Of a stretch of DNA of 64,000 nt, positions 2,493 through 41,187 are shown piece after piece. Origin of the DNA: Timonella senegalensis JC301 (GTDB taxonomy: Bacteria > Actinomycetota > Actinomycetes > Actinomycetales > Cellulomonadaceae); the NCBI RefSeq assembly GCF_000312125.1, contig NZ_HE978641.1:437054-501053 (forward strand). Direction: 5' to 3'. The translations under genes were made by a program, and so were the position numbers. How positions within the stretch are numbered: the first letter of the stretch is position 1; every line of letters begins with the position of its first letter. Under the pieces are notes generated by a model. That model saw nothing but the letters and a program-made list of their open reading frames with translations, was not told where the DNA came from and did no database searches.

Positions 2493-4166
2493 ATGGATCC
2501 ACGTGCTGGCACTGTTGCCCTCCCCGAAGACCTCATCGATGTTGACGCCCTCATTAGCGCCTACTACGACCTCGAACCCGACGTTTCCCTAGCTACTCAG
2601 AAGGTGACGTTCGGGACCTCTGGCCACCGCGGGTCTTCACTCGACCACGCGTTCAACGAAGCCCACATTGTGGCGACAACTGCGGCAATCGTCGAATATC
2701 GACGAGGCGCTGGAATTGACGGGCCGCTGTATATCGGGCGAGACACCCACGCGCTGTCTCTGCCAGCATGGCAGAGCGCGATTGAGGTGCTGGTAGCCGC
2801 GGGTGTACGCACAATGATTGATGCACGCGACTCGTATACGCCAACCCCAGCGGTGTCCCACGCCATCCTCCTGCACAACGGAGCCGCGACGTCGGAAGGC
2901 GTGCGCGTGGTCGGCCCCGGGCTAGCGGACGGAATCGTTGTCACCCCCTCCCACAACCCTCCGCGTGACGGCGGGTTCAAGTACAACCCACCCCACGGTG
3001 GACCAGCAGACTCGGACGCGACCAGTTGGATCGCGAACCGCGCAAACGAGATTCTGAGCCAGGGCTGGAAGTCAGTAGAGCGCGTGCCGTTCGCCCGCGC
3101 AGTGGAGTCCGAGTACCTGGGCCACCACGATTTCATGGCAGCCTACGTGGACGACCTAGCAAACGTACTCGATCTCGAGGCCATCCGCGGTGCCGGTGTA
3201 CGCATCGGAGCAGACCCACTCGGTGGCGCGTCCGTTGAATACTGGGGCGCAATCGGCGAGCACTACGGTCTTGACCTGACCGTAGTGAACCCGCAGGTTG
3301 ACCCTCGCTGGGCGTTCATGACGCTCGATTGGGACGCCAAGATCCGCATGGACTGCTCCTCCCCCTACGCCATGGCGTCGCTCGTGGAGAAGGTTAAGGG
3401 CACCTCGCAGTTCGACATCGCCACGGGCAATGACGCGGACTCAGACCGCCACGGTATTGTCACCCCGGACGCTGGCCTGATGAACCCGAACCACTTCCTA
3501 GCGGTGGCCATCAACTACCTGTACTCCGGTGCCCGTCCGGGCTGGGGCGAGGGCACCGCTATTGGCAAGACCCTCGTCTCCTCTGCACTCATCGACCGTG
3601 TGGCCGGCGGTTTGGGCCGCAAGCTCATCGAGGTCCCCGTGGGCTTCAAGTGGTTCGTCCCCGGCCTCATCGACGGCACCGTGGGCTTTGGCGGCGAAGA
3701 GTCGGCAGGGGCCTCGTTCCTGCGCAAGAACGGAAAGGTCTGGACCACGGACAAGGACGGCCTGCTGCTCGCACTGCTCGCGTCCGAGATCCAAGCCAAG
3801 ACCGGAAAGTCTCCATCGCAGCACCACGCCGACTTGGTGAGCCAATACGGCGAGTCGTGGTACGCCCGCGTGGATGCGCCAGCCTCGCTCGAGGAGAAAG
3901 CAACCCTGTCCAAGCTTTCCCCGGAGCAAGTCACGGCAACCGAGTTGGCCGGCGACCTGATCACCGCCAAGCTCACCTCAGCCCCAGGTAACAACGCCTC
4001 GATCGGCGGCCTCAAGGTCACCACCGACAACGCCTGGTTTGCGGCCCGCCCATCGGGCACCGAAAACGTGTACAAGATCTACGCCGAGTCGTTCACGTCG
4101 GCTGAACACCTGGCACAGGTCCAGGAATCGGCCAAGGCAGTGGTTTCCGAGGCCCTCGGCGGCTGA
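2493..4166 (+). CDS. pgm: Phosphoglucomutase (alpha-D-glucose phosphate-specific)
   Basis: A 557-aa cytoplasmic phosphohexomutase that interconverts glucose-1-phosphate and glucose-6-phosphate, linking glycolysis to glycogen, trehalose and cell-wall precursor synthesis. Visible signatures are [10 protein letters not shown] near the N-terminus, the phosphoserine loop [13 protein letters not shown], the Mg2+ loop [10 protein letters not shown], the sugar-binding GEESAGASF and the C-terminal phosphate-binding [10 protein letters not shown]. Length matches the family (about 550). ATG at 2493 ([14 protein letters not shown]) fits homologue N-termini better than the upstream ATG at 2448, and GGAAGA precedes it. 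The gene is divergent from DUF5926 and convergent with the methyltransferase, with a long inverted repeat at that junction. Confidence 0.95.
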
Positions 4167-6780: not shown

Positions 6781-8295
6781 GTGGTTAACGAATCTTCCCC
6801 GCTTGAAGACTCACGTGCACACACCGCGAAAAAAGCTTCTCGCAACCCGTACGCAACAGTCTATTCAAAACCCGGTGCCGCTCGATTTTCGATTGCTGGC
6901 GCGGTAGCCCGATCCCCAATGTCCATGGTTGGACTCGGAATCATCCTGATGATTTCGATGTACGCCGAGGAATGGGGCATGGGCAAAGAGGCATACGGAC
7001 TCGCAGGAAAGGTCAGCGCCGCATACGTGATCGCGCAGGCGATCTGCTCCCCGCAACTGGCCAAAATGGTTGACCGGTATGGGCAAGCCAAAATCATGCG
7101 TCCGGCTGTGGTCGTCTCGGCAACCTCGCTCTCCGCACTGGTCGCGTGCACGGTAACCGGACAGCCCATCTGGACCCTCTACCTCTTTGCAATCCTGACC
7201 GGTGCAACCATCGGATCGATTGGCGCAATGGTACGTTCGCGCTGGTCAAACGCGATCGACTCACCCAAGGAATTGCACACAGCGTTCTCGCTTGAAGCCG
7301 CAATCGACGAGATGATCTTTGTCATCGGACCGATTGCCGCAACATTGCTCGCCACCTCCGTGGCACCCCATGCTGGGCTTATCGTGCCCGTGGTCATGAT
7401 GATCGTGGGCGGGTTCTGGTTCCTCTCACAGAAGTCCACCGAACCACCCGTAGTCCGGTATGCCAAGCACGACAAGGTCAAGAGTGTGCTGCTCAACCCT
7501 GCGATGCTCTGCCTGATCGCAGTGTTCGTCTTCATGGGCGCAGTCTTTGGAGCAAGCGACGTTGCAACCATCGCGTTCGCAGAGGAACAAGGCCAGAAGT
7601 CAATGGCCGGAGCCATCCTCGCGGTGTTCGCTCTCGGATCCCTTATCTCCGGACTCGTCTACGGCGCCCGTCAGTGGGCGTCCCCACTGTGGCTGCGCTT
7701 TGCCATCGGCATCATTGCGCTCGCAGTCCTCAGCTCCCTGTTCTTCATTGCTACCAACCTCTGGATGCTCGCCGGAGCGATGTTCATCGCCGGGTTGGCC
7801 ATCTCCCCCACGCTGATCAACGGAAACAACATGGTCCAGCTCGTGGTCTCACCACGGCAGTTGACCGAGGGCCTCACGTGGGTTGGAACTGCGCTTGGCG
7901 TGGGAGTCTCCTTTGGCTCCTCGATTGCTGGTTCCCGCATTGACGCACACGGCGCCCACGAGGGCTTCCTCATCGTGGTTGTCTCCGCAGTGGCCTCCGT
8001 GGTTGTGGTTCTAGCTGCCGCAGGAGTGCTGCGCAAGAAGACTACCGAGCACGTCACCACAATCGAAGAGGTAGACCTGACCGGCTCTGAAACGTTGGGC
8101 ATCGAAGAACTCTCCAATACGGCCAAGGGACAGGTAGCCGCCCAGTCACAAGCCGAGGCTGAAAGCTGGGAAGAAGCCAAGGGCAACGACAAGTCCAAAG
8201 TAGACACAGCTACCAAGCCAGAAGCAGAGGCAGAATCCACAACTTTGGGTCAGGACGCCGAAGAACCAGAGTCCGAATCCACCACAGTTCCATAA
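6781..8295 (+). CDS. MFS transporter with acidic C-terminal tail
   Basis: A 504-aa inner-membrane protein with about 12 hydrophobic helices, for example SMVGLGIILMISMYAEEW and LYLFAILTGATIGSIGAMV. The cytoplasmic loop MVDRYGQAKIMRPAV is a form of the MFS loop 2-3 motif. GTG at 6781 is the start, with GAGAG about 9 nt upstream. The last about 75 residues are hydrophilic and Glu-rich (EAEAESTTLGQDAEEPES), unusual for the family and probably cytoplasmic. The substrate is unknown; small-molecule efflux is typical of the clan. A textbook terminator follows directly. Confidence 0.85.
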   Translation: MVNESSPLEDSRAHTAKKASRNPYATVYSKPGAARFSIAGAVARSPMSMVGLGIILMISMYAEEWGMGKEAYGLAGKVSAAYVIAQAICSPQLAKMVDRYGQAKIMRPAVVVSATSLSALVACTVTGQPIWTLYLFAILTGATIGSIGAMVRSRWSNAIDSPKELHTAFSLEAAIDEMIFVIGPIAATLLATSVAPHAGLIVPVVMMIVGGFWFLSQKSTEPPVVRYAKHDKVKSVLLNPAMLCLIAVFVFMGAVFGASDVATIAFAEEQGQKSMAGAILAVFALGSLISGLVYGARQWASPLWLRFAIGIIALAVLSSLFFIATNLWMLAGAMFIAGLAISPTLINGNNMVQLVVSPRQLTEGLTWVGTALGVGVSFGSSIAGSRIDAHGAHEGFLIVVVSAVASVVVVLAAAGVLRKKTTEHVTTIEEVDLTGSETLGIEELSNTAKGQVAAQSQAEAESWEEAKGNDKSKVDTATKPEAEAESTTLGQDAEEPESESTTVP

Positions 8296-31512: not shown

Positions 31513-34500
31513 TCAGGCGTGACGGCCAGTCCGTCGACGAGCAACCAGCAGGTAGGCTCCACCGGCGATCAGTGCGATCGCTGCCAGACCCGAACCCAGG
31601 ATCGCGACACCGGTGGTCGGCAGCTTGCCGCCCTCCTCAGTGTTGCCATCCACGATTGCTACGCCAAACGTGTTGACCACTGTGATCTTGGCGGAGCGTT
31701 CCTTCTCAACCTTCACGGACTTACCCAGGTCGGTCTTGGTTGCCCCGTGTGCGTCAACCTCGTTGACTACTGCACACTCGGCGCCCAGAGGAACGTTTGG
31801 AACAACCGGCTTGAACTTGTTGTCCGCGTTGGCCACTGCGGTGTAGGTGTCGTTGCCGCCCCACAGTACTGGGGTATCAACGCCATCCACGTCCGCCAGG
31901 CACTGGACCTCGAGTTCGAACGACAGGTCCTTAGCCTGGTGTGCGAAGGCACCCTTGAGTTCCTTCTTCACCTCGACCTCACCGATCTCGAACGTGTTGG
32001 TCACCGTGATGACAGCAGGGTCAGTGCCCGGCTCTCCCACGACCACGTTGTCACCCGTGTCAACGCTGGTTGCGCCGCCGGTCACCGTCTCGTCCGTGAC
32101 AACACAGTCGGCACCCGAAATCAGGTTCGGAACCATCTGGCTGTAGCCATTCTCAGGCGATAGGTCGAGGCTCAGCTTCTCCGCGCCATCCCACAGAACA
32201 GGGGTGGTCACTTCATCCTTGAGGTAGGTGCACGCCAGCTCGACCGTGTAGGTCTTGCCCGCTGCAAGAGCAGCGCCCGATCCCACGACGTCCTTGCGGA
32301 CCTCGATCTGGGAGACGTTGAACAGGTTGTCGAGGTTCGCGATGTTCTCGCTTGCCACGTCAATGTCCTCGGTATCCGCAATAAAGATCGAACCGTTGTT
32401 CTCGAACGTGGACTCCGAGGCTCCACCGCTCAACGTTTCCTCGAGAGCACACTCGGAGCCCACAGGGAGCTCGACCTTGTTGCCTTCCGTATCCAGGAAG
32501 TACTGGGTTTCGCCGCCCATGATGGTCAGTTCGCCCGTGTACACGTTGTCGTCCTGGTAGGTACACGATGCTGCGACCTTGAACTCCTGGTCCGCTCCGA
32601 ACCGGTCTGCGCCGTCACCCGAAAGGCTCTTGGTCACGCCGAGCGTGCCCACCTTGAAGGTGTTGGTCACGGTGATCTCACCAGACGCAACGTCGCTGGT
32701 GGCGGACTCGTCGCTGGAACCGGATGAATCGTCGGTAATCAGTTGGACGGGGGCAGTCCACGTCTTCGATGTGGCGCCGCCATCAACGGACTCACCAGTG
32801 ATCTCACACGTGGCGTCCTCGATGAGGTCGATGATGGTCGCCGAGTAACCGTTCTCCTTGGACAGCACTACGTCGAGCGTAGGCTCGCCGTCCCACAGGA
32901 TGTCGGTGTCGACTCCGTCCTTTTCGTAGGTGCAGGCAAGCTGAACCGTGAACGGACCAGCGCCGTACTGCTTGGCGCCAGCACCCACGATGTCCTTGTT
33001 AATGGTCACCTGGGCGGTGTTGAACGTGTTGGTCAGCTCGATCGCTGGGAGCGCAGGCGCTTCCACACCTTCCGCCGCCGCGGCTGGCACGATCACGTGC
33101 TCACCGAGGTGGACGTCGTTCGCGCCACCCTGCTGGGTCTCTTCCGTGACCCAGCAGTCTGCGCCAACAGGAAGATTGTCGATCTGCGTAGCGTAGCCGT
33201 TGTCCTTGTTCAGCGTGACCTCGGTGGTGTTACCGTCGTTCGCGAACACCGGAGTGTCGGTTCCGTTGACGTCGTATACACAGGACACGTTGGCCTTGTA
33301 GGTCTGCTCGCCAAAGCGGACAGCGGCCTCACCCACCACGTTCTTGTGAACCTGGATGGAGCCCGTGTTAAACGTGTTGGTCACGGTGATCTGTGCCTGG
33401 TTTTCAACACCATTTACGACGATCTTGGCTGGCTTGCCAAGGTCCGTTTCGTTGGCACCACCCTTACGAGACTCCTGCGTGATCTCGCACTCAGCGCCCT
33501 CGATCAAGCCCGTCTCGGTGTGGGTGTACTTGTTGGCCTGGTTGAGGACGATGTCAAGGAACTCGTCCTCACCCCACGTGATCGGCCTTGCTGCGCCGTC
33601 CACGTCGTAGGTGCAGGCTAGACGCACGGTGAACTCGTTCTGGCCGTACTGCGCGGCACCATCACCGAGGATCGCCTTGTTGATGGTGAGATCACCGGTG
33701 TTGAAGGTGTTGGTCACCGTTGCGGTCTGCTCGGCGGCAGGCTCGGCCGTTTCCGTGACCTTGACTGGGTTCTCCTTGGTTGCGGAGAACTCGATCTCGT
33801 TGGCGCCACCGGTTTGGGTTTCGCTAACGATCCAGCACTCAGCTCCGACCATCAGATCGTCGACAACAGCGCGGTAGCCCTCGGCCTCCTTCAAGGTCGG
33901 AGGCAGAGTCTTGGAGCCATCCCACAGGATGTCCTCCACCTTGCCATCAGCCATGTAGGTGCAGCTGAGATCCACCACGTAGTCGTTGCCGCCGAAGCGG
34001 TCCACGCCTGCGCCAACTTCCTTCTTTTGGATTGCGATGGAGCCGGTCTTGAACACGTTGGTTATGGATGCGGCCGCGACCTCCGTGTTGTCCCCATCCT
34101 TACCATTCGCAATGATCGTGACTGGAGACTTCTCCGTTGCAGAGAAGGCCCTATCCTGCGCTCCACCGGACACGGACTCGCCCGCGATCCAGCAGTCAGC
34201 GCCGGCAATGATGCCGTACACGCGCTTGGAGAACTCGTTGGAGGTGTTCAGGTCAACATTCAGGAAGTCATCACCAGTCTTGGCAACGGTTCCGGTGGTG
34301 TTGTCCCACAGGACCTTCTTGTCCTCGCCATCTACCTTGTACTGGCAGACGAGTTGAATGGTGTAGGAATCCACGCCGTAACGCTTGGCTCCCGTGCCCT
34401 CGACAACCTTCTTCAGGTCAATGTTGCCGACCGTGAAGATGTTCTCGACGTCCACCACGTTGTCAGAAGCCGTCGTGGCATTCTCGCCAGCAACGATTCC

Positions 34501-37500
34501 AACGTTCGCGGTGCCCTTGTTCACGATGGAGTCGTTAGCCCCACCCGTCTTGGTCTCTGCGATTACGCAGTCGGCACCAGCAGGGAGTTTGGCATCCTTG
34601 CCCCTGAACTTAAAGGTGGCAGTCTCGCCGGCCTTGAGGGTTACCTCGCCGGAGTAGACCTCGGTGCCGTTGTAGGTGCAAACGGCTGTAACGGTGAAGT
34701 TTTCTCCGCCGAAGTCGTCAGCGCCCGCTCCGGTTGCACGCTTGGTTACCGAGAGGGTTCCGTGCGTGAACTCGTTGGTGACGTCCACCGTGGTGTCGGT
34801 ACCGATCTTGACTGCCACACCGTTGTCCTTGGCGGTGACGGCGTTGCCGTCGACCTTGAAGGAAACGATCTTGGCGTTGCCGGTCTTGGTCTCCGTCAAC
34901 ACACAGTCCGCGTTTGCAGGGATCGTGTTCTTTGGAGCCGTCCAGGACAGTGTGCCGTTGCCCGTATCCGAAAGCGTGAAGTTGATCGGAGCGATCACCT
35001 TCCCGTTGAACGGCGCACAGGTGAGCGTGAAATCAAACGGACCGTAAGCGGCGCCCACGGTGTCGTTGGCGGTGATCGCCTTAGACACGGTGAGGTTGCC
35101 GTAGTCGTAGGTGTTCGTGATCGTTGCGAGTTGGTCGGCTCGAACCGTCTTGGTCGCAACGGAGTCGATCAGGATTGTGGCAGGGCCTTCAGAGACCACA
35201 CCATCAACCGAGATCTCACTGTCGGACTCAAGGTAGGTTCCCGTTTCCTCGATCTCGCAACTTGCCCCAATTGGCAGTTTGTCAATCGTGACCGAATACC
35301 CGTTCGCCTCGTTCAGCGTGACGGAGATTGGGTCCAACTTCGTTCCGGCAACCGTGCACGTGGCGGTAGCGGTGAACGACTGCGCTGCGAAGTCCTGTGC
35401 CGCCCCGTCCACCTTCTTCTCCACGGTGAGGCTACCCACTGGAATGTGGAGGCCCACGATGGACGCAACGCGGTTTACGGGGTTTCCACTCACTGGCGTT
35501 GCCGATACCGCAGCCTGGTTCCAGGCCTCTTGGTTCGGGTCACGCAACTCGTCGGCCGAAGTGCCGTCAGTGAAGCTCTTTACCGAGGTGGTGGTGAAGA
35601 GCTTGGTCTCCAACGCCTGGCCCGGCTGGAAGTAAGATCCACCTGCGAACTCGAAAGTGATCCTGAATGACTTGATGCTGTTCAGCGCTGCGCGGCTTGG
35701 GAACGCTGCCTGTGCAGCTGCGCCAACCGGCTTTCCATCCGCGTCAAACTCATACCATGTGGCCTTGGAGCACGACGTGTCGTTGAACCAGTTGGATTCG
35801 GTGCAGGCGTGCTGCTGCGTGGATACCTCGACCTTGACCGAGTACGGGGCCTTGTCAACGCTGCCATCCGCGGCGCGGCGGACGAACTCGAACGGCTTGA
35901 GCGCAACACCGGACTCGGCCAGCTGGAACTGGGTCGAGAACGTCGAATTACGTGGCAAGCCACCGGAGATCAGCTTGTCACCTGGCATCGGAAGCTCATC
36001 AATGAGGACAAACTTCTTCATGTCCTTGCCACCAGTGTTGGTCACTGGAATCTTCCATGCGTCCTTGCCGCCGATGATCGTGGCGTCGGCGCAGCCGCGG
36101 GTGTAGAAGCCCTCGCTGTCAGGAGCACAAGTCGCGTTTGCCGAGTTGGACTTGGCGCCCTCAATGTCGAACTTGCTATCGAGGTTTCCGTTGACCCACT
36201 TTTCCGTAGCGATGTCCGCGTCCGTGGTCATCGAGACCTTGAACTTGGCGCCACAGTCGGTGCCCGGGAGTTTCTCGCCCGTTTCCGGGTCCGTGGTCTG
36301 CAGGTTGTTCGCATTGGTGTCGTGCGTGCACGACTCGAGAGCGTGTGGCTGATCGGTACGCACCACAAAGCGGTTGGTGAGTTCCTCAGCCGATCCGCCA
36401 CCCGCACGAACCGTGGTGGGGATCTTGATGGTCATGGACTCGCCAGGTTCCATCCGGCCCTCGCCCTGCGCCCACACAAAGTTGAGCTGACGCTTGGCGT
36501 CGTCGTAACTCCACGACTCAGGAGCGTCCACACCGTCTGCTGGGTTGAAGGAGACCGTTGGGTCCGCTCCAGACCATGCAATCTGGCGCGGCAGGTAGTC
36601 CGTCAGGGTGTCCAGATCGATGTAGCCCGTACCCTTATTGGTGACCTTGAGGGTCCACATCACTGCGTCGTCAGCCCTCAGACCCGAGGCTGGGTCTGCG
36701 GCCTTGTCCACAGAGATCTTGGTGGTTCCGGAGTGCAAAGCGATGTCCGCAGGGTCCGTAGCAGTCTTCTCTCCGTTCAAGCGCCCAAGGCCCTTGCGCT
36801 CCACAGTCGAGTCCACGTGGTTGGTGTACTTGACTGGCGTTCCGCTTGGGAAGGTGACCGTCTCGGGCTCGCCAACCAGTCCCACGCTGGTCTCGCGGGG
36901 CACGATAGTGAACTTAGCCTCGGTCGACCATACAGGGGTCAGAGTCTTCTCGTCGAAGACGAGGTTCTTACCGTCGATCTCTCGGAAGTACTCGAACACA
37001 AAACCTGTGATCGATTCCAGCGCGATGTCATCGGGCAGAACTACCTCGAACTCCTGACCAGAGATAGCCTGAGTGACTGCGACCTTCGCCGTCTGTTCCT
37101 TACCGGTGAGCACGGAAACGACAACCTTGTTAGCGCCCTTAGGCGACTTCACCTTGAAGGTGTTGGAGGCCAGAGCGAAGGTGTTCCAGAACTCCTTGGT
37201 AGTGTCCTTGAGTTCGACCCGGTTGGGCCAGATCGTGGAAGCACCCTGATGTGCGGAGATGGTTACGCTGCTTGCCATTCCACGCTTGGGTTCGAGAACG
37301 GTCTCAATGCCTTGGACCGTGTCGGGAGCATCAATCACCTTGTCGGTCTTGATGTCCAACGTGCCGTCCACCAGCTTGGTGCCAACGGATTCGGCGTCGC
37401 TGACGTAACCCCACTGCTTGTCGAGCGGCTTGGTTTCGTCCCACTTTTCGTTGGCCAGTACGTGGTGGTAGGACTGCGCAGCCACCGTATTGGTCATTTC

Positions 37501-40500
37501 CTTGAATTGCGCGCCCTGCTCACCCGTACCAGCAATCTGCTGGTCGGTGGAGCGGTAGGTCTTGCGCAGTTCTACGCTCACGTCGGCCGTGATCTGGTCC
37601 TTCTTCCACAGGGAGCCCGCGCCTTCTAGGCCGCTTGCACCCACGTAGAGGACCGAGAAGCCAACCACTTGGGCAAGCTTTTCCTTCTTTGCAACGTCCC
37701 CGAGGGAGTTGAAGGCACGAAGGGAGATCTTCTCAACTGAGCTGACCTTGGACGCAGCGTCGTACTTCCACAGTTCAAGGGTGGTCAGCTCCTGATCGAG
37801 CACGTTCAGCGGGGAAATGGTTATTCCCGTGATTCCGAACGCCTCAAACGGGCTGGTTTTTGCACAGTCCTTGAAGTAGTCCTTGACGTTTCCACCCGAT
37901 GTGAACACGTCGCGCACTTGCACGCGCGGGTCGCCAAGGGTCGGGACTACACATGACTCATGGTCACCGGCATCGGTGATACGCAGTGAGTTCGCGGGTG
38001 ACGATGACTCATTGTTCACGGCGAGACGGTAGGTGTACGAAGGGTACTGCCCGGTGAAGTCACTCAATTCCGGTACCGCAACCGTGTATGGGCTCGGCTG
38101 TACTTGGTTGTTTACTACGATCTGCTTGCTCGTGTTGACGCCTGGAGTTGGATCCGAGATTGGGTTCTTTGAAGGAGCAACTTCGGTGTCAGTCTTGTCC
38201 CCGCTCCACGCAGATCCGCGCACCTCGTTCAGTACGTTTTCGTCCTTGGCAGTAATCCAGTCAGAAGGATTTGTGCGCTTGGAGTCCCTGAGTTTCCAGT
38301 CAAAGTTGAATGTGGAGTTCACCTTGCCTGGGTTCGGAACAACGATTCCGCTGCCAGCCTTTGGCGCAAGTGGGCTCTTAGATGCACTGCGTACAGCGGC
38401 GTCTTCAACAACGGTGATGCGAACACCTGTGACCGAGGCCTGGAGTTCTGCAGATAGGGTGACCTTGCGCATCGCACGGCCATTCATCCAGTTAACGTCG
38501 CCGCCCGCGGACAGTTGACCGTTGGTTCCTAGCGCCTTCCAGCCTTGGCCGGAAATATACACCTCGACGGACTTCACGCGGTCCCACTCGAAAGTGCCAT
38601 CCATCGAGATGGACGTCAGGTTCGTCATGTCGAACACGGTATTCGCGCCCACGCCAGCCGCGGGATCCGTGGATGGTTCCTGGATGACTACCGCGTCGGT
38701 GAGCTGGCTGTTGATACGCCAAGGAGTCTTGGTCCGGCGTTCCGTTCCCTGCTGGGTGTAGAACGGCTGGGCTGTTCCGTTCGCAACCGTGTACCAATTC
38801 TTTGAGATATCAATGTCAGGTCCTGGTCCAGGACCAGTCACTGGCTCCTTGTAGTAGTAGAGCTCGGCAGCCGCTGGGTCGCTGTCCACGCCCGTGAGGA
38901 TGCAGGTGTCCGGCTGAGTCTCACACGTCACACCTGGACGAGGAGCCTCTCCGGTTACCGTGGCCGTGTTGGTGATCTTCTGCTTGAGGTCAAAGGGAAG
39001 CTCATTGATAGGCTCCCCACCGGTTGCGGGACGTGGCTTCGGATCAAACACGAGCGTCGGCTCGACCTGGACGCCCTGGGAGAAGCTCTTCTCAGCGTCA
39101 TAGACGATCTCCACCTTGGTCACCTTGCCAACTAGATCAGCGGGCACGGCCAGCGATGACTCGCCTGCAGGCACCTTAACTGTCTGCGGTCCGGATGCCG
39201 TGTGGAAGACAACGGACACCTCAGTGTCCTCGCCGAGCGCGTGCTCAAGCCCGGAGACGCTCACCAGATCGGCGTGCTTCCAGATGTTGTTCGCGTCGCT
39301 TTCGATCAAGCCATCGGCGATGACCACCTTGTTTGGCGCAACGTTCTTGCCGCCTGCCTTCACGTTCGCCTGGAGGGAAGCAAAGATGTAGTTGTTCTCT
39401 GCGTACTTAGAATCAGAGAACTTCTTATCCAAGCTCGCTTCGATAGAGGGCTCGTGGATCGTCACGGAGTCCTTGGTTTCTGGCGCCTCTACCGGACGGT
39501 CCTTGTACTTACCGGAAGCGTTCAAAACGTTGTCCGCAACGCACGAGGTCTCGGCCGCTTCAACCGAACACAGTGCATTTTCGCCGGTGTTTTTGGCGTC
39601 GAGAACTGTGGTTGGATCCGTCTTGTATGTGACCTGTGCATTCAGGGACGCACTTGGGGCAATCTTGCCCTCTGCCACAACCTTGAACGATGCACCAGCG
39701 GTCAGAAGTGCGGTCACAGTAGCCTTGTCTGCTTCGCTGAGCTTAGCGCTGCCATCCACGACAGGAAGGTTAAACGTAGTGTCCACACCGCCCTTGGTCA
39801 CCACAAACTTGAGAGCGGTTACGCCTTCTGGAATGGTGCTGACCGAGATGCCGTCAAACGTGATTCCCTCTCCGAAGAACCCCGTGTCAACCAACGTCAT
39901 TGAGTCAAGCGAAACTGGCGATTTGTTCGTGCCTTCGATGGTGAAGGTTCCACCTGCCCCAGCTGGAACATGGTCCTCGGCGAAAACCTTCTTTGAACTA
40001 ATTTTCAGGTCGATTGGCACAATCTCGTAGCCTGCGTCGTCCACAGCAACGTTGGACTTCTTGTCCCCCCGCTCGAGGAACGTCTCGGCCTTGTTGTTGA
40101 CCGCGATCTTCTCGGCGACGTTGTCCAGTTTGGTGTCGGGGTTGCTGCGCATTGCGCTGCGCTGAGTCACTTGTGGCTCCACAACGAAAGTTGCGTCGCG
40201 TTCGATCAACCCACCATCGGCGGCCTGAAACTCCACGCTAAATCCGGTGACGTCTTCCAGGTTCACGGTGCTGAGGTCAGGAGATGAGCCCGCCGCCACG
40301 GTGACCGATCCAGCGCCCTCTGGCGCAAATGTAATTGTGGCGCTACCTGCGCCCTTCGGCCAGGTGCTGATTTCCAAACCATCGAGGTCGACATAGTCGA
40401 ACGGGTTGGTTCCGCCGATAGGATCATTTAGCGTCCAGCTCTCCGCCCCGGAGTTAGACGTGTTCTTACCTGTGAGCGACATGGATCCCACACCGTCGAC

Positions 40501-41187
40501 CATGGACCAGGTCTCGTCGAGGCCCACGGAGAGCTTGCGCTCAAACGTGTAGTCCACGGTTGCGTCCGAGGACGCCGTGGAGTTGGTGTTCTTGATCGCC
40601 GACGTTGCGGTGTTCTTGATGTCCTTGGCCGCGTGAACCCAGTCGGGGTCCTTGGCTTCGCTTGGGACTGTCATCTTGATGACGATGTCCGCACCCGCGC
40701 CAGCCTGCATGTTGGCGATCGACCCGCCAAGTTGGTGACGGCCGTCCTTGTCTTTGCCCAGCGTCAGGGAGTGGCTTGCCCCAGTGGGTAGCTTGACGCT
40801 CTGGATCTGCGCACCAAACCCGTTGAGTTCCTCGGGAAGGAGATCGTCAATTGCGGTCTCGAGGCAGGCAAAGTTGTCACACGCGACCTTGATGACCCAG
40901 TAGAGGTACTCCGTCTCGGGATCCGTAACAGAGATGTCCTTCACACCACTGTTGAAGTCAATACCTTCTTGGGAGTTCTTGGACGAGGTCAAGACTGTCT
41001 TATCGATACGCGTGACCGCACCTGCGTTCTGTTCACCCCCCGCCGCCTGTGCCGGCGCTGGCACAGCCATCGTCAGGAAGGACGAAGCCAAAACGGACAA
41101 GGTTGCAGCAACGGCCATAAAGGACCATCGTTTGCGAAGCGAGGCCATTAGCCCGGTCGCGCGCGGTTCCATATTCTCAAGTTCCAT
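31513..41187 (-). CDS. Giant LPXTG-anchored surface protein with 11 DUF5979/CnaB-like repeats
   Basis: The protein is 3224 aa, the largest in the window. A signal peptide (WSFMAVAATLSVLASSFLTMAVPAPAQA, about residues 22-49) is followed by about 1850 residues of β-rich modules of about 200-300 residues, several ending in a VTGF-type strand (VTGFSVEF, VVGFSVLYV, ITGFVFEYF), plus a DUF11-like stretch (VDKAADPASGLRADDAVMWTLKVTNKG). Residues 1918-3176 hold 11 tandem repeats of about 114 aa. The end is the sortase signal LPTTG (Leu3189), a hydrophobic helix and RRRTGRHA, so the protein should be linked to peptidoglycan. No sortase gene lies nearby. An adhesin or stalk role is inferred. No Shine-Dalgarno precedes the first ATG; in-frame ATGs at residues 6 and 14 are alternatives. 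Confidence 0.9.
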   Translation of the reverse strand: MELENMEPRATGLMASLRKRWSFMAVAATLSVLASSFLTMAVPAPAQAAGGEQNAGAVTRIDKTVLTSSKNSQEGIDFNSGVKDISVTDPETEYLYWVIKVACDNFACLETAIDDLLPEELNGFGAQIQSVKLPTGASHSLTLGKDKDGRHQLGGSIANMQAGAGADIVIKMTVPSEAKDPDWVHAAKDIKNTATSAIKNTNSTASSDATVDYTFERKLSVGLDETWSMVDGVGSMSLTGKNTSNSGAESWTLNDPIGGTNPFDYVDLDGLEISTWPKGAGSATITFAPEGAGSVTVAAGSSPDLSTVNLEDVTGFSVEFQAADGGLIERDATFVVEPQVTQRSAMRSNPDTKLDNVAEKIAVNNKAETFLERGDKKSNVAVDDAGYEIVPIDLKISSKKVFAEDHVPAGAGGTFTIEGTNKSPVSLDSMTLVDTGFFGEGITFDGISVSTIPEGVTALKFVVTKGGVDTTFNLPVVDGSAKLSEADKATVTALLTAGASFKVVAEGKIAPSASLNAQVTYKTDPTTVLDAKNTGENALCSVEAAETSCVADNVLNASGKYKDRPVEAPETKDSVTIHEPSIEASLDKKFSDSKYAENNYIFASLQANVKAGGKNVAPNKVVIADGLIESDANNIWKHADLVSVSGLEHALGEDTEVSVVFHTASGPQTVKVPAGESSLAVPADLVGKVTKVEIVYDAEKSFSQGVQVEPTLVFDPKPRPATGGEPINELPFDLKQKITNTATVTGEAPRPGVTCETQPDTCILTGVDSDPAAAELYYYKEPVTGPGPGPDIDISKNWYTVANGTAQPFYTQQGTERRTKTPWRINSQLTDAVVIQEPSTDPAAGVGANTVFDMTNLTSISMDGTFEWDRVKSVEVYISGQGWKALGTNGQLSAGGDVNWMNGRAMRKVTLSAELQASVTGVRITVVEDAAVRSASKSPLAPKAGSGIVVPNPGKVNSTFNFDWKLRDSKRTNPSDWITAKDENVLNEVRGSAWSGDKTDTEVAPSKNPISDPTPGVNTSKQIVVNNQVQPSPYTVAVPELSDFTGQYPSYTYRLAVNNESSSPANSLRITDAGDHESCVVPTLGDPRVQVRDVFTSGGNVKDYFKDCAKTSPFEAFGITGITISPLNVLDQELTTLELWKYDAASKVSSVEKISLRAFNSLGDVAKKEKLAQVVGFSVLYVGASGLEGAGSLWKKDQITADVSVELRKTYRSTDQQIAGTGEQGAQFKEMTNTVAAQSYHHVLANEKWDETKPLDKQWGYVSDAESVGTKLVDGTLDIKTDKVIDAPDTVQGIETVLEPKRGMASSVTISAHQGASTIWPNRVELKDTTKEFWNTFALASNTFKVKSPKGANKVVVSVLTGKEQTAKVAVTQAISGQEFEVVLPDDIALESITGFVFEYFREIDGKNLVFDEKTLTPVWSTEAKFTIVPRETSVGLVGEPETVTFPSGTPVKYTNHVDSTVERKGLGRLNGEKTATDPADIALHSGTTKISVDKAADPASGLRADDAVMWTLKVTNKGTGYIDLDTLTDYLPRQIAWSGADPTVSFNPADGVDAPESWSYDDAKRQLNFVWAQGEGRMEPGESMTIKIPTTVRAGGGSAEELTNRFVVRTDQPHALESCTHDTNANNLQTTDPETGEKLPGTDCGAKFKVSMTTDADIATEKWVNGNLDSKFDIEGAKSNSANATCAPDSEGFYTRGCADATIIGGKDAWKIPVTNTGGKDMKKFVLIDELPMPGDKLISGGLPRNSTFSTQFQLAESGVALKPFEFVRRAADGSVDKAPYSVKVEVSTQQHACTESNWFNDTSCSKATWYEFDADGKPVGAAAQAAFPSRAALNSIKSFRITFEFAGGSYFQPGQALETKLFTTTSVKSFTDGTSADELRDPNQEAWNQAAVSATPVSGNPVNRVASIVGLHIPVGSLTVEKKVDGAAQDFAAQSFTATATCTVAGTKLDPISVTLNEANGYSVTIDKLPIGASCEIEETGTYLESDSEISVDGVVSEGPATILIDSVATKTVRADQLATITNTYDYGNLTVSKAITANDTVGAAYGPFDFTLTCAPFNGKVIAPINFTLSDTGNGTLSWTAPKNTIPANADCVLTETKTGNAKIVSFKVDGNAVTAKDNGVAVKIGTDTTVDVTNEFTHGTLSVTKRATGAGADDFGGENFTVTAVCTYNGTEVYSGEVTLKAGETATFKFRGKDAKLPAGADCVIAETKTGGANDSIVNKGTANVGIVAGENATTASDNVVDVENIFTVGNIDLKKVVEGTGAKRYGVDSYTIQLVCQYKVDGEDKKVLWDNTTGTVAKTGDDFLNVDLNTSNEFSKRVYGIIAGADCWIAGESVSGGAQDRAFSATEKSPVTIIANGKDGDNTEVAAASITNVFKTGSIAIQKKEVGAGVDRFGGNDYVVDLSCTYMADGKVEDILWDGSKTLPPTLKEAEGYRAVVDDLMVGAECWIVSETQTGGANEIEFSATKENPVKVTETAEPAAEQTATVTNTFNTGDLTINKAILGDGAAQYGQNEFTVRLACTYDVDGAARPITWGEDEFLDIVLNQANKYTHTETGLIEGAECEITQESRKGGANETDLGKPAKIVVNGVENQAQITVTNTFNTGSIQVHKNVVGEAAVRFGEQTYKANVSCVYDVNGTDTPVFANDGNTTEVTLNKDNGYATQIDNLPVGADCWVTEETQQGGANDVHLGEHVIVPAAAAEGVEAPALPAIELTNTFNTAQVTINKDIVGAGAKQYGAGPFTVQLACTYEKDGVDTDILWDGEPTLDVVLSKENGYSATIIDLIEDATCEITGESVDGGATSKTWTAPVQLITDDSSGSSDESATSDVASGEITVTNTFKVGTLGVTKSLSGDGADRFGADQEFKVAASCTYQDDNVYTGELTIMGGETQYFLDTEGNKVELPVGSECALEETLSGGASESTFENNGSIFIADTEDIDVASENIANLDNLFNVSQIEVRKDVVGSGAALAAGKTYTVELACTYLKDEVTTPVLWDGAEKLSLDLSPENGYSQMVPNLISGADCVVTDETVTGGATSVDTGDNVVVGEPGTDPAVITVTNTFEIGEVEVKKELKGAFAHQAKDLSFELEVQCLADVDGVDTPVLWGGNDTYTAVANADNKFKPVVPNVPLGAECAVVNEVDAHGATKTDLGKSVKVEKERSAKITVVNTFGVAIVDGNTEEGGKLPTTGVAILGSGLAAIALIAGGAYLLVARRRTGRHA
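31609..31623 (-). other. Sortase recognition motif LPTTG
   Basis: LPTTG at residues 3189-3193 is followed by VAILGSGLAAIALIAGGAYLL and the charged tail VARRRTGRHA, the standard three-part cell-wall sorting signal. It predicts cleavage between Thr and Gly and attachment to the wall. Confidence 0.92.
31660..35436 (-). repeat. Eleven tandem DUF5979/CnaB-like protein repeats
   Basis: Each repeat begins like GSLTVEKK and ends like ITNTY or VTNTF. In all 11 the Lys at position 7 (as in GNLTVSK, GDLTINK, GEVEVKK) is kept, a Cys occurs in the LxCTY-type strand, a second Cys with a Glu 4-5 residues later occurs in the CxIxET-type strand (CEIEET, CVIAET, CALEET), and the last strand has Asn (TNTF, ENIF, DNLF). 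Lys/Glu/Asn in these strands is the CnaB isopeptide triad. At the DNA level the repeats have drifted, so this is an old array. Repeats 4-8 are most alike. Confidence 0.8.

Follow-up and report, generated by a model that had tools for sequence, protein, structure and literature searches.

A 64,000-nucleotide stretch of the Timonella senegalensis JC301 genome (contig NZ_HE978641.1, positions 437,054 to 501,053; the window, here meaning the whole stretch analysed) encodes on its minus strand a 3224-residue protein with 11 tandem repeats of the DUF5979 family. The array very probably forms the stalk of a fibrillar adhesin that a sortase anchors to the cell wall, whereby each of the 11 domains would be linked internally by both an isopeptide bond and a disulfide. 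The probability of this reading is put at about 0.9, the bonds, the mechanics and the adhesin role being inferred from sequence and predicted structures.

The repeats span residues 1917–3179 (window positions 31651–35439). An earlier note on this DNA had placed them at 31660–35436, within a few bases of these limits, and had described a shared Lys, a Cys, a second Cys followed 4–5 residues on by Glu, and an Asn in the closing strand; the alignment recovers all of these in 11/11 repeats. Pairwise identity among the repeats averages 30% (range 18–47%), and only five of the 87 ungapped columns are invariant: Lys8, Cys29, Cys71, Glu76 and Asn108 (numbering of repeat R6, in which Lys8 is position 7 of the earlier note). 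There are exactly two cysteines per repeat (11/11), and the order of residues along each is K-C-C-E-N. How did this invariance arise? A chance origin was ruled out, as 5000 within-sequence shuffles gave 0 invariant columns. Recent tandem duplication was ruled out as well: Tandem Repeats Finder detected no DNA-level tandem repeat across the repeat region, and the five positions have therefore been kept through long divergence.

Pfam DUF5979 (PF19407) covers all 11 repeats, in 11 stretches, with a score of 281 bits (cut-off 25). Table 1 of Costa et al. (2025; PMC12617251) lists the family as CnaB-like and isopeptide-forming, with Lys610/Glu680/Asn715 of 4BUG as the reference. A survey sample of 197 distinct full-length DUF5979 domains, which comprised those of the window and others from 47 loci (almost all of these loci in other actinobacterial genomes), served for comparison. 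Lys is present in 196 domains and Glu in all 197; of the 191 domains with a residue at the Asn position, 190 have Asn. The Cys pair behaves in another manner: 157 domains have both, 40 have neither and 0 have a single one, and the same holds when the sample is reduced to 126 clusters below 50% identity (95 both, 31 neither, 0 single). A tree of the clusters, weak because its alignment is short, implies at least 8 joint changes of state of the pair. Such a strict all-or-none distribution is the pattern expected of a disulfide. Nearly every domain of the family has the isopeptide triad, and the predicted disulfide is an optional, all-or-none addition to it. The sole surveyed domain without the Lys (L056, with Lys changed to Arg) also has Ser in place of Asn and keeps both Cys. 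A search with a 3-repeat alignment found 8 named loci, including those in Isoptericola, Cellulomonas, Sediminihabitans, Propionicimonas and Streptacidiphilus; as judged from the named loci, the family is spread within the Actinomycetota. Plasmid searches gave nothing.

Two repeats were modelled with AlphaFold2, R6 from an 11-sequence alignment and R3 from 32 sequences, with a predicted local distance difference test (pLDDT) score of 91.4 and 94.7, respectively. In the models, Lys8 lies on the first strand (residues 2–11 or 2–12), Cys29 on the second, the second Cys and the Glu together on a later strand, and Asn108 on the last (102–109 or 100–110). The closest solved folds to R6 are PitA (Z 12.4, root-mean-square deviation (rmsd) 2.2, 99 residues aligned) and Spy0125/Cpa (Z 10.0, rmsd 2.6, 98 aligned), and the same two come first for R3 (PitA, Z 10.9, rmsd 1.8, 86 aligned; Spy0125/Cpa, Z 10.8, rmsd 2.4, 95 aligned). 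They are followed by Cna B1, Mobiluncus 5u6f, Spy0128, T-antigens and RrgB, with Z in the range 6–9 for the Cna, Spy0128 and RrgB matches. By these models, the repeats adopt the CnaB (transthyretin-like) beta-sandwich fold. In both models, Lys8/Asn108 map to Cpa K610/N715, Cna B1 K633/N717 and RrgB K349/N428, all of them pairs that PMC12617251 gives as bonded (its Table 1). The proposal that Lys/Glu/Asn constitute a CnaB isopeptide arrangement is thus supported by the predicted fold, by conservation of the triad and by this mapping. A single-sequence search of the PDB matched only an unrelated antibody, and a profile of the repeats and their named relatives (A3) matches Mobiluncus 5u5o (E 8.9e-5) with both Cys aligned. 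The further proposal, that the Cys pair adds a second cross-link per domain, gains support by analogy from this match to solved, doubly cross-linked domains.

How might such a domain work? In the CnaB fold, a buried acid drives the autocatalytic bond between a first-strand Lys and a last-strand Asn (PMC4014117), and Spy0128, in which such a bond joins the first and last strands, is reported to be inextensible to 800 pN (PMC8382745). By the same scheme, Lys and Asn of each DUF5979 domain would self-link with a buried Glu promoting the reaction, and the Cys of the second strand would pair with the one that shortly precedes the catalytic Glu of the later strand. The disulfide would probably be installed after export by an actinobacterial thiol-oxidase/VKOR system. 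The genome has two VKOR and four Thioredoxin_4 proteins as candidates; these would fit a pathway in which exported proteins are folded oxidatively, like the one shown for MdbA/VKOR in Actinomyces oris (PMC5478893).

The spacing of the bonded residues is of particular interest. From the Asn of one domain to the Lys of the next there are exactly 11 residues at 10/10 junctions in the window, and the span from Lys to Asn within the 11 repeats is 97–117 residues. Because only about 11 residues per domain would lie in the force path, the isopeptides might form a near-continuous covalent spine, with some 97–117 residues per domain shielded from pull. The earlier note suggested that two cross-links per domain may give a mechanically very stable stalk. 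The isopeptide can be retained as the presumed load bearer, but a load-bearing role for the disulfide is unlikely: it is nested between Lys and Asn, so the isopeptide would shunt end-to-end force past it. Located inside the shielded loop, the disulfide would most likely help folding before the isopeptide closes and add thermal stability and protease resistance. In the survey, 102 of 132 junctions are of 11 residues and 15 of 13, and 21 of the 30 junctions that depart from 11 are odd-numbered (13, 15, 17, 9); Lys–Asn spans within the surveyed domains vary from 81 to 134.

Table 1. Predicted features of the adhesin-like protein, with positions in the window
Feature	Residues	Position	Strand	Basis
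Secreted, cell-wall-anchored protein, fibrillar adhesin-like (predicted)	3224 residues	31513..41187	minus	open reading frame; signal-like start, LPTTG end
Signal-peptide-like N-terminus: charged n-region, hydrophobic stretch, APAQAA	1–48	41044..41187	minus	sequence; inference
DUF11/CLIPPER-like domain, upstream of stalk	1491–1613	36349..36717	minus	Pfam PF01345, 31.1 bits, cut-off 24.6
DUF5979 repeat R1	K1924 C1944 C1977 E1981 N2025	35104..35439	minus	Pfam and alignment
DUF5979 repeat R2	K2036 C2057 C2095 E2099 N2138	34765..35103	minus	alignment
DUF5979 repeat R3 (+4 type, AlphaFold2 pLDDT 94.7)	K2149 C2170 C2207 E2211 N2249	34432..34764	minus	alignment, model
DUF5979 repeat R4	K2260 C2281 C2332 E2337 N2377	34048..34431	minus	alignment
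DUF5979 repeat R5	K2388 C2409 C2451 E2456 N2493	33700..34047	minus	alignment
DUF5979 repeat R6 (+5 type, AlphaFold2 pLDDT 91.4)	K2504 C2525 C2567 E2572 N2604	33367..33699	minus	alignment, model
DUF5979 repeat R7	K2615 C2636 C2678 E2683 (or E2682) N2720	33019..33366	minus	alignment
DUF5979 repeat R8	K2731 C2752 C2794 E2799 N2842	32653..33018	minus	alignment
DUF5979 repeat R9	K2853 C2875 C2913 E2917 N2954	32317..32652	minus	alignment
DUF5979 repeat R10	K2965 C2986 C3028 E3033 N3064	31987..32316	minus	alignment
DUF5979 repeat R11 and start of C-terminal linker	K3075 C3096 C3138 E3143 N3172	31651..31986	minus	alignment
LPTTG sortase motif, then hydrophobic stretch and RRRTGRHA	3189–3193	31609..31623	minus	sequence

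Does the protein act as a single chain? CnaB-type domains are typical of pilins, and the genome encodes three sortases, one of them close to a second DUF5979 protein; the repeat protein might then be a pilin-like subunit that is polymerised by a pilus-specific sortase. This is quite improbable, as a length of 3224 residues with 11 repeats suits single-chain fibrillar adhesins, the 64-kb window has no sortase gene, and the genes that flank 31513–41187 encode an Opp-type ATP-binding cassette (ABC) transporter and an HrpA-like helicase, neither of them obviously related to it in function. The second protein has an LPLTG motif, 1162 residues and two DUF5979 domains (L082:260-3748; C1 ~600759-604247), and the sortase gene (C1:598240-598614) is located ~2 kb from it. 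In the adhesin reading, the LPTTG end of the window protein would serve as the anchor; here the NCBIfam LAVTG and LPXTG anchor models score below their cut-offs (17.2 vs 27 and 11.1 vs 15.9). The binding part is presumably located in the N-terminal region of ~1440 residues (36718–41043), which has several closely spaced cysteines and no convincing Pfam match. The DUF11/CLIPPER-like domain that lies between this region and the stalk has candidate bond residues of its own, Lys1495/Asp1530/Asn1605.

The two registers of the catalytic Glu are a second source of doubt. It follows the second Cys at +4 in R1, R2, R3 and R9, and at +5 in R4–R8, R10 and R11, R7 being ambiguous because Glu is present at both positions. 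Among Cys-bearing domains of the survey, +4 is the rule (149/157); the other 8 are the seven window repeats and one domain of the same genome. This lone +5 domain outside the window repeats belongs to the second DUF5979 protein (L007). As a shift by an odd number along a strand requires a bulge, it might be supposed that the triad is kept for packing only, or that the Glu of the +5 type, in 7/11 repeats, is out of register and the isopeptide forms in part of the stalk. This is very improbable: Lys and Asn are invariant in the +5 repeats, and R6, a +5 repeat, is confidently modelled and can be laid over solved isopeptide domains from one end to the other, as can R3 of the +4 type. The earlier note had said that the two spacings deserve a structural check; by superposition, both models put Lys8/Asn108 on bonded residues, so that +4 and +5 appear to share one framework. 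The extra residue of the +5 repeats is probably accommodated as a local strand bulge. A more speculative notion, a possibility that is on the whole doubtful, is that DUF5979 stalks keep the distance from the bonded Asn to the bonded Lys of the next domain at 11 residues, whereas the span inside domains is free to vary. Selection would then act on the force-bearing spine and on the rotation between domains as well as on the single domain, and the +5 register would be an adjustment of the reaction site peculiar to this lineage.

That the isopeptide alone forms, with the two Cys staying as free thiols, binding metal or linking neighbouring molecules, could be argued from the predicted status of the intradomain disulfide here and from crystals of the Mobiluncus domain 47I, in which the disulfide is only partly formed (PMC10619420), but it is extremely improbable given that the Cys occur strictly together in the survey (157/40/0) and exactly two per repeat, that SpaD D3 and FimP have a disulfide at the corresponding positions, and that VKOR and thioredoxin-like oxidases are encoded in the genome. 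Other points weigh against the reading of a doubly cross-linked adhesin stalk. Survey domains were chosen by profile, which favours conserved columns, yet Cys-less domains (20%) passed. The mapping of Lys8 and Asn108 onto PDB entries takes the ends of the structural alignments as ungapped. Some CnaB domains with a full triad, such as the N-domain of FimP, form no bond as isolated protein. The adhesin role is assigned from architecture alone, because the first 1490 of the 3224 residues are without a convincing Pfam family match; no known binding domain was found in the N-terminal part, where the DUF11-like domain is the sole match.

What does the doubly cross-linked array add? It constitutes a long, well-conserved natural series of predicted doubly cross-linked domains in an actinobacterium, and the survey supplies a clean statistic at the level of DUF5979, i.e. 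a near-universal triad and an optional Cys pair. Because the disulfide is all-or-none within the family, natural domains with and without Cys can reveal what the disulfide contributes.

The combination of isopeptide and disulfide is already known, as it has been solved in three actinobacteria. Close in design is domain 47I of the giant Mobiluncus mulieris adhesin (5u5o/5u6f), where mass spectrometry showed the isopeptide Lys6842–Asn6955 together with a disulfide between strands 2 and 5 (PMC10619420). As in the window, this is an actinobacterial tandem stalk with a first-to-last-strand Lys–Asn site and a Cys pair. Counted on the PDB sequence 5u5o, the cysteines are 6867 and 6895, and Glu6899 follows four residues further on, whereas seven window repeats use +5. 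The paper prints Cys6887, probably a slip for 6867, because the aligned 5u5o sequence carries Glu at 6887 and Cys at 6867. The Mobiluncus adhesin mixes isopeptide with ester-bond and thioester domains, but Pfam found neither of the latter in the window protein.

In SpaD D3 of Corynebacterium diphtheriae (Lys332, Cys352–Cys402, Glu406, Asn450) and the C-domain of FimP of Actinomyces oris (Lys363, Cys385–Cys449, Glu452, Asp487), both bonds are found in one CnaB domain and the order of residues is that of the window repeats. The distance from Lys to the first Cys is 20 in SpaD D3, 22 in FimP and 20–22 in the window; from the second Cys to Glu it is 4, 3 and 4–5, respectively. However, SpaD and FimP are sortase-polymerised subunits of pilus shafts, both domains have a calcium-binding loop, and the bond partner in FimP is Asp. 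The C-terminal domain of Spy0125/Cpa of Streptococcus pyogenes (2xic/4bug) is of the same Pfam family and fold, and its Lys610/Asn715 match Lys8/Asn108; it is a single domain of a pilus-tip adhesin, for which the available text mentions no disulfide, whereas the window protein has an array of 11. Spy0125 without its isopeptide bond has a lower melting temperature and is less resistant to trypsin (PMC4282584). Costa et al. (2025; PMC12617251) give disulfides for 41.3% of isopeptide domains of Actinomycetota and note tandem repeats in surface proteins; in the available text, DUF5979 is not named among the disulfide-rich families. The window array is an ordinary but clear case of a known tough-stalk design, with chemistry that is already known, and it departs from the ordinary mainly in the fixed 11-residue spacing between nodes and the +5 register of the Glu.

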